A stretch of DNA of 64,000 bases from positions 62,001 to 126,000 of the forward strand of contig NZ_ACFE01000005.1 in the NCBI RefSeq assembly GCF_000174015.1, in the 5' to 3' direction. The stretch comes from Lancefieldella rimae ATCC 49626. GTDB taxonomy: Bacteria > Actinomycetota > Coriobacteriia > Coriobacteriales > Atopobiaceae. Each line of letters begins with the position of its first letter. Within the stretch, counting starts at the first letter, position 1. A model generated the notes under the pieces. The model made no database searches. It was not told the origin of the DNA and worked only from the letters and a program-made list of their open reading frames with translations. The translations under genes were made by a program, and so were the position numbers. This document shows, piece by piece, positions 2,782 to 7,102 of the stretch.

Positions 2782-3669
2782 CTAACTATCCAAGCTCTGC
2801 AGGCCCAAGGCAAGCGCACCAAGAATACCTTGATTTCCACTGCAGCCATCACTAACAACATATGAATCAATCGCACTAAGTTCGGCTGTATTGATATAGC
2901 CGTTAAGGTTTTCCAAAAGTTTTTGGCGAATAAGCGGAAAGAGCTGAGTCTGTTTCATAACGCCGCCACCCAAAATAATACGCTGCGGCGAATAGCAAAG
3001 TACATACACTGCCAGAGCCTTTGCAAGATAGGTAGCTTCCAGTTCCCATACTTCCTGCTTTTCATCAAGCTCGGAGGCCGGAAGTCCCCAGCGCTTCTCG
3101 ATGGAAGGACCTGAAGCAAGGCCCTCAAGACAAGATACGTGATACTGACAGACGGACATCGCCAGCGGATCGTCTTTCTCCCGCTCAATCGGAATGTGGC
3201 CGGCCTCCGGATGCAACATGCCATGCAGAAGCTTCCCACCCAAAAGAACGCCCGCTCCGATACCCGTTCCTACCGTAAGATAAACAACGTTTTTCAAACC
3301 ACGTGCCGAGCCAAAAAGAGCCTCCCCTAAACACGCGGCATTGACATCCGTATCGTAGCCAATGGGCACACCAAGTCCTGCTCTCAGCGCCCCTAAAAAA
3401 TCATAGTTGACCCAACCTTGCTTAGGCGTCGAGAGTATCTTGCCATAATCGGGCAGCTCAGGGTTAACACACGTAGGACCAAAAGCTCCCACTCCAAGCG
3501 CATCAATCTCTCGCTCGGCAAACCAGGCAATCATCTTCGAAACGATGCCCGCAGGCTCTGTGGTAGGCATAACCTCACGCTCGAAAATTTTTCCTTCTCG
3601 CGTTCCTATCGCTAAAACCATCTTGGTTCCACCGGCTTCAAGCGCACCGATGCGAGGTCCATCTACCAT
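2782..3669 (-). CDS. ROK family sugar kinase, fructokinase type
   Basis: Probably phosphorylates fructose or a related hexose with ATP in the cytoplasm. The N-terminal phosphate loop GALEAGGTKMVLAIG and the zinc-site region with CQYHVSCLEG fit the fructokinase (ScrK/Gmuk-like) branch of ROK kinases rather than glucokinase; GTGIGAGV and GGGV are also present. Length is 295 residues when started at ATG 3669, which has AAGGAGGG 4 bases upstream; the frame is open to 3813 but would overlap copA. It begins 28 bases after copA ends, so it may be carried on the copper operon transcript, although a link in function is not obvious. Confidence 0.78.
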   Translation of the reverse strand: MVDGPRIGALEAGGTKMVLAIGTREGKIFEREVMPTTEPAGIVSKMIAWFAEREIDALGVGAFGPTCVNPELPDYGKILSTPKQGWVNYDFLGALRAGLGVPIGYDTDVNAACLGEALFGSARGLKNVVYLTVGTGIGAGVLLGGKLLHGMLHPEAGHIPIEREKDDPLAMSVCQYHVSCLEGLASGPSIEKRWGLPASELDEKQEVWELEATYLAKALAVYVLCYSPQRIILGGGVMKQTQLFPLIRQKLLENLNGYINTAELSAIDSYVVSDGCSGNQGILGALALGLQSLDS

Positions 3670-3697
3670 GTAACCCTCCTTATCGCTTAAAGGTGTC

Positions 3698-3904
3698 TTA
3701 CGCAATACTCGCTTCATAACCCGCATTCTTGACTGCGGCAATAAGCGCTTCGTCAGAAACGGCACCGTCAAACTCAACGATGGCAGACGCATCTTCAAGC
3801 GATACTTCCACACGAGAAACGCCCTCTACGGCTTCAAGCGCCTGAGTAACGTGTGCAACACAGTGCTGACAGCTCATTCCTTCAACATTCAATTTCTTTT
3901 CCAT
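3698..3904 (-). CDS. Possible free CopZ-like copper chaperone from an internal start in copA
   Basis: Inside the copA frame an ATG at 3904 is preceded by a purine-rich AAGGAAAGGAAAGAG stretch. Starting there would yield a 68-residue protein, [15 protein letters not shown]..., the usual size and layout of a CopZ metallochaperone, ending at the same stop as CopA. Known parallel: some bacteria make a chaperone from the copA gene by frameshifting. Here the route would be internal initiation. There is no stop codon between the ATPase and this domain. Expression of the short form is inference. Confidence 0.45.
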
Positions 3905-6337
3905 ACGCTCTTTCCTTTCCTTCGGTGTCGGTACGATTACAGGTATTGCTGTTGTACATATGGGTTTTGACTGCGCATCAAAACCTGATTGAACCTGAGT
4001 TTCAACGGATCCCACATGACTCACATCAATTTCTTTTGGTTTCCACGTGCGCAGACGCAGGGCGTTTGTCACTACAAAAACTGACGAGAATCCCATGGCC
4101 GCCGCTCCTATCATCGGATTGAGCGTAACGCCCAAAGGCGCCAAAAAGCCCATGGCAACCGGAATACAAATAGCATTATAGAAGAGCGCCCAGAAGAGAT
4201 TCTGCTTGATATTTCTGAGAGTTGCTTTCGAAAGTTCAATAGCTCCGGCAACATCTGTCGGATCTGACTTCATAAGCACAATGTCTGCCGAGCTGATAGC
4301 CACATCAGTGCCTGCTCCAATAGCGATACCGATATCTGCCCGAGCAAGTGCCGGAGCATCGTTAATGCCGTCGCCCACCATGATGACATTCTCGCCGGAC
4401 TCTTGAAGACGACGGATTTGAAGTTCCTTCTCGCTTGGTAAAACGTCAGAAATCACTCGGTCAACGTTGAGTTTTTCCCCAATCACCGCCGCCGTGGTTT
4501 TTTGGTCTCCCGTGAGCATAATGGATTGTATGCCCATGGCTCGCAGCTTCAGAATTGTCTTCGCACTTGTTGGCTTTATGGTATCCGCCACGGCGATAAT
4601 CCCTACAAGCTTGCCGTCTCTCGCAAAAAAGAGTGGTGTTTTTGCATCGGAGGCTAAGGTATTCGCGGAAGCTTCAAGGCCGCCAAGGTCAACGCCCTCC
4701 TGCTCCATAAGACGCCTATTTCCTGCAGCGATTTTTGAACCCGCAAGAGTTGCTGTAAGGCCGCCTCCCACAACCTGCATAAAATCCGTGAGTTCGGCGT
4801 TCTTCTCGCCTTGTGTTTGAGTGGCCGGTACGCTGGCAGAGTGCATATCGGCATAGGCCACAATCGCCTGCGCGAGAGGATGCTCGCTTTTACGCTCAAG
4901 GGTTGCCGCAAGAGCAATGAGATCTTCTGTCTCCACACCTTCGGTGGCAATTACGTCAGTTACGCTGGGCTTACCTTCGGTAAGAGTTCCTGTTTTATCA
5001 AAGACAACCGTAGTGGCTGCTGCCGCACCTTCAAGCGCCTCGGCAGACTTTACCAAAACGCCCTGAGAAGCGCCCAAACCGGTACCTACCATGACGGCGG
5101 TCGGCGTTGCAAGACCAAGTGCACAGGGGCAAGAAATTACCAGCACCGACACGGCATGAGAAAGAGCGACGACAAAATCACCCGGTGCAAACACAAACAG
5201 CCAGCCGACAAAGGTGAGAAGCGCTAATACCATGACCACCGGCACAAAGACGCCTGCAATGGTATCGGCACGGCGCTCTATGGGAGCCTTTGAGCTCGTT
5301 GCCTCATCAACAAGACGGATGATGCCGGCAAGCGTTGTATCATCGCCTACGGCCTGCGCTTGCATCTTGAACCAGCCTCCGACGGAAACGGTGGCGCCGG
5401 TTACGTGCGCACCAACCGCCTTTTCCACGGGGATTGCCTCGCCCGTGATAGCCGACTCATCTACCGAACTCTCCCCTTCCACCACCACACCGTCCACAGG
5501 AATGGCGCTTCCCGCGCGAACTACCAAAATGTCGCCCACGTGAACGTCCGCGGCAGAGACGGTTTCTTCTTTGCCGTCGCGCTCTACCACTGCCGTCTTA
5601 GGAGTAAGGTTCATCAAAGCCTCAATGGCTCCGGTGGTACGTCCCTTCGCACGAGCTTCAAAGAACTTTCCCAGCGTAATGAGGGCAAGAATCAAACCCG
5701 CCGATTCAAAATACATGCCATGCATGGCTATGTGAGCAGCCGTCCAATCCCCTGCGACAAAGGCATTTGCCATTTGATAGAGGCTGACCACACTGTAGGC
5801 AAAACTTGCGGAAGAACCAAGCGCGATAAGTGCGTCCATATTAGGTGCGCCATGGATAAGCGAACGAAAACCACCGATAAAGTAATGTCGATTGATAAAA
5901 AGTATGGGAATGCAGAGAAGAAGCTCAGTAAGCGCAAGATTCATCATGTTGCGCATACCGGAAAGCTGTGGCGGAACCGGCCAGCCAAGCATGTCCCCCA
6001 TGGCTATGTAAAAAAGCGGAACGGCACATGCGAGAGACTCTATAAGCTGCCGTTTTTTTGATTCAACTTCCTTTTGAGCAGCGTCCGTCGCACGAGCCTC
6101 AGATGAAACAGCAACCTTCTGTTCAAGACGAGGTTGTGCCTCATAGCCGGCCTTTGAGACGGCAGCGCTTATATCCTGAAGCGTCTTTTGATTGCCGTCA
6201 AAATCAACCTCCATTGAGTTCTTGAGCAAGTTGACCCGAGCTTCTTTGACACCGCTAACGGAAGCAGCCACTTTTTCCACATGAGCGGCACAGCTTGCGC
6301 ACGTCATTCCTATGACATCAAACGTTTTCTGATCCAT
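3698..6337 (-). CDS. copA: Copper-exporting P1B-type ATPase with N- and C-terminal HMA domains
   Basis: An inner-membrane Cu(I) exporter of 879 residues. In order: an N-terminal heavy-metal domain with GMTCASC (residue about 10), a membrane domain with the CPC motif [11 protein letters not shown], the actuator motif TGEAIPV, the phosphorylation site DKTGTLTEG, the SEHPLA nucleotide-binding motif and GDGINDAPA. Unusually, after a 40-residue linker there is a second heavy-metal domain at the C-terminus ([11 protein letters not shown]), like a CopZ chaperone fused in frame. It follows csoR by 14 bases in one operon and should be induced by copper. Confidence 0.95.
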
Positions 6338-6351
6338 CTTGCAACCTTGCC

Positions 6352-6705
6352 TTACATAAACTTCTTGAAGAGATCCATAACCTCATCGATAACGTCAGTA
6401 TCGCCTTGCTGCACACGATCGACCACGCAAGACTTCAGGTGGTCTTGCATCACTTCCCGAGAAATCGCCTTTACTGCAGATTCCACAGCAGCAAGCTGGA
6501 TAAGAACGTCTCCGCAGTAGCGATCGTCCTCGACCATAGTTTTAATACCACCGAGCTGTCCGATCACGCGATTGATACGCCGTGACACACTTGATTTAAG
6601 CTCCTGCGAGCGGGGTTTGTTTTTATGGGCACACAAACAGGTCTCCGATTGAGACTGCGCTTCGGTCTTTGACTCTGTTGCTTTTGGTTGACTGAGTGCC
6701 GACAC
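6352..6705 (-). CDS. csoR: CsoR-family copper-sensing repressor
   Basis: A DUF156 all-helical metal-sensing repressor that leaves its operator when Cu(I) binds. The ligand pattern Cys (DRYCGD), His and Cys (DHLKSC) is intact, which points to copper rather than the RcnR nickel/cobalt type. The start chosen is GTG 6705, which has AAAGGAGA with a 5-base spacer; the frame extends to 6735. Length is 117 residues. The N-terminal 30 residues are an extension rich in Ser, Glu and Lys with a CLCAH segment that might bind metal. It is followed by copA after 14 bases, and an excellent operator lies upstream. Confidence 0.93.
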
Positions 6706-6763
6706 ATGTTCTCCTTTTACACACTTTATGAACACCCCTTCTGAGATGCCCTATGTATAAAGC

Positions 6764-6786
6764 ATAATACCCCCTAGGGGCATATT
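6764..6786 (-). promoter_or_regulatory. CsoR operator
   Basis: The sequence TACCCCCTAGGGGCATA contains a perfect CCCCTAGGGG palindrome (6771-6780) flanked by A/T-rich arms. It matches the G-tract pseudo-palindrome known for CsoR operators in Mycobacterium and Bacillus. It lies about 60-80 bases before the csoR start, so csoR-copA should be autoregulated and copper-inducible. Confidence 0.85.
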
Positions 6787-6808
6787 TATACTACATGTAT
6801 GTAATCTT

Positions 6809-7102
6809 TTAATCCATGTACCATTGATTCAAAAAGAACATCATTGAATACACCACTATTACAAGCCAGAGCACACATGAAATAATCTTAAATATCGGCT
6901 TTGTCTCATTTCCCGTTACGGTTGCTGCAAAAAAGAGAATAGTAACAGGAATCAAGGACCATGCAAAAATTACCGGGCTTATAAGCTTGAACTTTAACAA
7001 GGTTGAAAAGCTTACCGATATGATAGTCTCAACTACCAGTAGCCTCCGACGCCATTTGAAATCTATGTTCATGGCTCGTAGAGACCTCACTCTCTTTAAC
7101 AA
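6809..7102 (-). CDS. Small hypothetical membrane protein
   Basis: I do not recognise this protein. It has 97 residues with a basic N-terminus (RRRLLVVE) and three likely membrane segments: near residues 22-40, 43-61 and 70-90, and ends in NQWYMD. Base composition is lower in GC than the neighbours. The start is uncertain: TTG 7102 has GGGAGC close by, while an ATG inside (MNIDFKW) lacks a good ribosome binding site. It ends just before the csoR operator region and has the same orientation as the operon. Confidence 0.5.
   Translation of the reverse strand: MLKRVRSLRAMNIDFKWRRRLLVVETIISVSFSTLLKFKLISPVIFAWSLIPVTILFFAATVTGNETKPIFKIISCVLWLVIVVYSMMFFLNQWYMD

Follow-up and report, generated by a model that had tools for sequence, protein, structure and literature searches.

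The window analysed here is a stretch of 64,000 nucleotides from Lancefieldella rimae ATCC 49626, and on its minus strand lies copA, a copper ATPase gene with an HMA domain encoded at each end of one open frame (Table 1). Pfam recognized two HMA stretches, E1-E2_ATPase and HAD hydrolase in the product, which scored above the cut-offs of the copper-translocating P-type ATPase models TIGR01511 (574 bits, cut-off 397) and TIGR01525 (605 bits, cut-off 346). The translation contains SCPCALG, DKTGT and GDGINDAP, so the CPC membrane, DKTGT and GDGxND motifs are all present, which we take to be those of a CopA-type Cu(I) P1B ATPase. The gene for a CsoR/RicR-type repressor lies upstream, and we infer that the two genes likely form one operon.

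Table 1. Features of the copA locus, in positions of the window.
Feature	Position	Strand	Remarks
CsoR/RicR-type metal-sensing repressor	6352..6735	-	14 nt upstream of copA
copA, Cu(I) P1B ATPase with N- and C-terminal HMA domains, one open frame	3698..6337	-	879 codons
N-terminal HMA domain, aa 5-66	6140..6325	-	Pfam
Linker, aa 763-811, last membrane segment to C-terminal domain	3905..4051	-	
Purine-rich Shine-Dalgarno region	3908..3923	-	core AAAGGA at 3913-3918
Internal in-frame ATG, codon 812, proposed start of free CopZ	3902..3904	-	
Nested copZ, C-terminal HMA with GMSCQHC	3698..3904	-	68 codons + stop

The earlier note on this DNA had described a second heavy-metal domain at the CopA C-terminus after a linker, and an ATG at 3904 that follows a purine-rich region and leaves 68 codons to the end of the gene. 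Both descriptions were borne out: the second HMA domain spans about aa 814-878, the ATG falls on its edge, and the sequence directly 5' of this ATG is CCGAAGGAAAGGAAAGAGCGT. The linker is variable in length and sequence in an alignment of relatives. As in a CopZ chaperone, the C-terminal HMA domain is about 70 aa long and carries MxCxxC; it lies above the cut-off of the copper-binding model TIGR00003 (69.7 bits against 62) and has solved CopZ relatives (1cpz, 2qif). The 68-aa product was below the cut-offs of the equivalog CopZ models (NF047957, 84.2 against 85 bits; NF033794, 73.9 against 95), and it is therefore called CopZ-like here and is not named by these models.

The Shine-Dalgarno (SD) energy at the internal ATG is -5.9 kcal/mol, compared with -6.1 at the start of copA itself, and the 41-nt site around the internal ATG has no predicted structure. 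The SD was no better than that of random synonymous recodings (mean -6.0, 61% as good or better), and it is among the weakest of the comparison set. Taken alone, the internal start signal of this copA exceeds chance only modestly; across the relatives described below, the signal lies far beyond chance.

In the order Coriobacteriales, 169 CopA loci were read, 109 from the family of L. rimae (f1, probably Atopobiaceae), 42 from f3 (probably Eggerthellaceae) and 18 from f2 (probably the Collinsella family, by likeness only). For f1, 108 of the 136 genomes with a match were taken and less similar matches were left out. The gene was fused in frame to a C-terminal HMA domain at 132 of the 169 loci (96 in f1, 36 in f3, none in f2), and every one of these fused genes carries the in-frame ATG, which lies 11 codons before the first Cys in 83 genes, 12 before it in 47 and 13 before it in 2. 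The start codon is retained though neighbouring residues vary. The remaining 37 loci comprise 14 with a chaperone after a stop codon, 18 scored as having none within reach of the motif, one at a contig edge and four unclassified because of contig ends or motif rules (L075, L104, L105 and L165). Three f2 loci scored without a chaperone were read by eye, and a separate chaperone was seen in L159 and L164 and none in L154. In the genus of L. rimae all five genomes read, its own and those of four other species, have the fused gene. A sequencing error or hidden stop between the domains was rejected as the origin of the fusion, given these five genomes and the 132 fused loci of the order.

Individual loci showed further arrangements. 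At the 3' end of copA in L011 (G125), a single in-frame TAG is followed by a coding-looking linker, a normal SD, ATG and chaperone, which suggests a recent stop or an assembly error. In L132 (G255), copA ends in a degenerate remnant of a C-terminal HMA domain. A separate copZ comes after it, in a different frame and with an SD and ATG of its own, and looks like a replacement for the fused copy. About 150 bases lie between the copA stop and copZ in L159 and L164, and a long hairpin-like element common to both, seen by eye, could be a regulatory or repeat element. The copA of L287 (Gordonibacter pamelaeae 7-10-1-b) is probably frameshifted in that assembly, since the HMA domains of its two ends, N- and C-terminal, fall in two separate open frames of 748 and 699 codons.

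Fused genes below 80% identity to one another were taken as 66 representatives. The ATG was present in all of them, with an SD of -5.5 kcal/mol or better in each (mean -8.3), while 955 other in-frame ATGs gave a mean of -2.7, with 20% at -5 or better. The purine content is highest at codons -6 to -3 and falls at -2 and -1, which is the spacing of a real SD. Folding of the 41-nt site averaged -3.3 kcal/mol versus -11.8 elsewhere in the genes, and the structure was weaker than in the linker (mean -11.2) in 64 of the 66. The linkers range from 23 to 98 codons and are not alignable; in 41 independent close pairs (1376 aligned codons), linker differences at codon positions 1, 2 and 3 numbered 268, 292 and 416, respectively, and this third-position bias indicates that the fusion is translated.

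The same signal was found in other phyla. In a scan of GTDB, made with a C-terminal alignment and two patterns that contain the start Met in neither, the 80 best loci were kept, and 78 of them were fused; by named taxonomy, 14 of the fused loci belong to Coriobacteriia and the rest to Clostridia, Negativicutes, Erysipelotrichia, Tissierellia, other Bacillota and Spirochaetia. A start codon was present in 77 of the 78, as ATG at -9 to -16 in 72 genes, as one GTG and two TTG, these three with a strong SD, and as ATG at -17 in L189 and L249 (SD -5.8 and -9.4). The sole fused gene without a start, L183, has a separate small CopZ-like open reading frame about 2 kb upstream of copA. A second sample was an even draw of 299 genomes from the phylum of Acetatifactor muris (Bacillota), and among the best 30 loci of the 280 genomes with a match, 24 were fused. 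Each of the 24 had a start: ATG at -11 to -13 in 22 genes, GTG in one, and in another an ATG at -24 (SD -8.9). In two of the 24 the SD at the ATG was weak (-2.7).

In 84 non-coriobacterial fused genes, the SD averaged -9.3 kcal/mol versus -2.8 elsewhere and was stronger in all 84, and the structure averaged -1.5 versus -8.8 and was weaker in 82; L183, L189, L249, L256 and L266 were left out of this count, and L266 of the second sample is of the same species as L243 of the GTDB scan. Ruminococcus albus 7 and Roseburia 831b both carry the fused gene with ATG (SD -11.1 and -5.6); their annotation lists the ATPase alone. The copA of Catenisphaera adipataccumulans (L286/L214) encodes two tandem C-terminal HMA domains, the last preceded by ATG and AAGGAGG and the first by GTG with an SD of -8.2. 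In an even draw of 394 genomes from the phylum of L. rimae itself, the C-terminal domain was reached, among the matches listed, only in its own order. The comparison supports the proposed internal initiation, and the proposal reaches much wider than the window.

Three HMA domains were found in the L. rimae genome: besides the two of CopA there is one in a 131-aa protein whose gene lies on a different contig. This protein has a hydrophobic N-terminal stretch, so that the HMA domain search of the genome gave no stand-alone soluble copZ. The gene of the 131-aa protein (L034:1053-1448, contig 6, outside the window) lies beside a flavodoxin-like gene, and HMA proteins of similar open-frame length were seen in many relatives. 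Among 40 genomes searched for HMA domains, G002, G030 and G037, which have the fused gene, contain only the two of CopA; further small HMA proteins occur in others, some of them with the fused gene, so the CopZ of the fused gene is not always the sole candidate for a free CopZ.

Considering the above results, we regard it as very likely that copA gives two products, with internal initiation yielding a free CopZ beside the fusion. Sequence comparison points to this reading on several counts: the frame is open across the fusion, the start codon is conserved and has an SD, the RNA around it is unstructured, and the separate copZ of relatives begins at the same codon (see below). To that extent the proposal of the earlier note, that one gene could make both a fusion and a free chaperone, is supported. 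Ribosomes starting at the first ATG would continue to the end of the gene and yield CopA with a tethered C-terminal CopZ domain, and others would enter at the exposed internal SD and ATG ahead of that domain to produce CopZ in its free form, 68 aa long in L. rimae. If the site is used in cells and both products are stable, free CopZ would ferry Cu(I) to the pump and perhaps also deliver it to the adjacent CsoR-type repressor.

Stop-separated relatives bear directly on this model. In three of them, Enterococcus faecium (tcrZ), E. faecalis and Collinsella aerofaciens, the pump gene ends in a stop codon and the chaperone follows as a gene of its own in the same frame, with an annotated start 11 residues before the first Cys (tcrZ counted by eye). 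The earlier note had raised the question of whether relatives possess a separate copZ with a stop codon at this point; some do, and their copZ begins at the same codon as the internal ATG of the fused genes. The existence of such same-frame pairs also fits a relic: copA would have lost its stop and been joined to the copZ behind it, with the former ribosome binding site and start left over and only the fusion of importance. The trees, built with FastTree and carrying local support only, add to this, with about 9-10 interchanges between the fused and separate states. In the CopA-core tree (161 rows), the state changed 10 times, which may be one too many because L094, truncated at a contig end, and the loci scored without a nearby chaperone were all counted as separate; in a wider tree of unsure root (159 rows), where the tandem N-terminal CopAs form a separate supported group, it changed 9 times. 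Both trees contain large fused-only clades, and gain and loss are indistinguishable in both. These changes suggest that stops come and go and the start remains. However, the ATG, the SD and the open structure persist within the large fused-only clades despite linkers of 23 to 98 codons that are not alignable, which makes a recent relic unlikely, and we give the relic explanation as such little credence.

A second explanation is structural: the HMA domain would require the Met, and the purine-rich codons would only encode a charged hinge. In its favour, the SD stretch of the 66 representatives encodes mostly K, E, R and G, and most of the SD energy comes from the choice of amino acids. Synonymous recoding gave a mean SD of -7.4 kcal/mol versus -8.3 observed (Wilcoxon p 2e-5), with only 3 of the 66 genes individually under 0.05; since recoding already gives -7.4, amino-acid choice carries most of the energy and the synonymous excess is small. 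On the other hand, the SD core occurs in three codon registers (50, 9 and 7 genes) through 35 different amino-acid triplets, GTG or TTG stands in place of ATG in L205, L220, L250 and L270, and the start lies anywhere between 9 and 24 codons before the Cys in different fused genes, with the SD still ahead of it. As a control, 20 Bacillota CopAs were chosen for their longer open frames, and 16 had a readable tandem N-terminal HMA. None of these 16 carries an ATG at the corresponding place before the second N-terminal domain (one has a GTG with an SD of -5.2), and a structural need of the domain for Met was rejected on this ground; we consider the structural explanation very improbable. Finally, we consider it very improbable that free CopZ has another origin than initiation on the full-length message. 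Proteolysis in the linker would not select for an ATG, an SD and unstructured RNA. A short mRNA begun inside copA would also be translated from this ATG, but positions 3500-7000 gave no sigma-70-like match on the minus strand and two on the plus strand.

With somewhat less confidence than for internal initiation itself, we think it probable that the dual-product copA is old and crosses phyla (Coriobacteriia, many Bacillota and some Spirochaetota), that both forms are selected, and that the free one is missing from annotation. Alongside separate genes and frameshifting, there would then be a third way to obtain pump and chaperone from one locus. If true, a widespread copper chaperone goes unannotated in many gut bacteria, and the question of why a cell would keep a tethered chaperone beside a free one becomes testable. 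Because the stop-separated relatives serve as natural controls, copA also offers a clean case for nested in-frame starts by comparative genomics. An earlier-described copper ATPase reportedly has HMA domains at both ends, like L. rimae CopA, and we know of no claim of an internal start for it. A full-text literature search, with most subscription papers outside its reach, returned no report of a CopA/CopZ pair made by internal initiation.

Enterococcus operons of the tcrYAZB/copYAZ type resemble the fused copA in that a pump is followed in the same frame by CopZ/TcrZ, with an SD and a start 11 residues before the Cys, but they have a stop codon between pump and chaperone and no fusion. A shorter protein is also made from the same gene by an in-frame internal start in clpB, infB, mrcB and arcB (PMC11005335), and the copA family likewise appears to have such a start, with an SD at normal spacing that is conserved in relatives. 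Unlike copA, these genes involve no pump/chaperone pair and no stop-separated natural relatives in the parts of that source available to us. E. coli copA is alike in its products: its pump and CopA(Z) chaperone arise by programmed ribosomal frameshifting (Meydan 2017 and Drees 2017, as cited in PMC7558416 and PMC10187127), so that there, too, a single gene supplies both a copper ATPase and a free chaperone identical to one of the pump's HMA domains. In E. coli, as described there, translation stops early after the frameshift and the N-terminal domain serves as the chaperone, whereas the fused copA would use a second start and no change of frame to release the C-terminal domain; L. rimae copA is one continuous frame with the chaperone at its 3' end. 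If the internal start is used, the two genes allow a direct comparison, in which a similar pair of products is obtained by two unrelated translational tricks.
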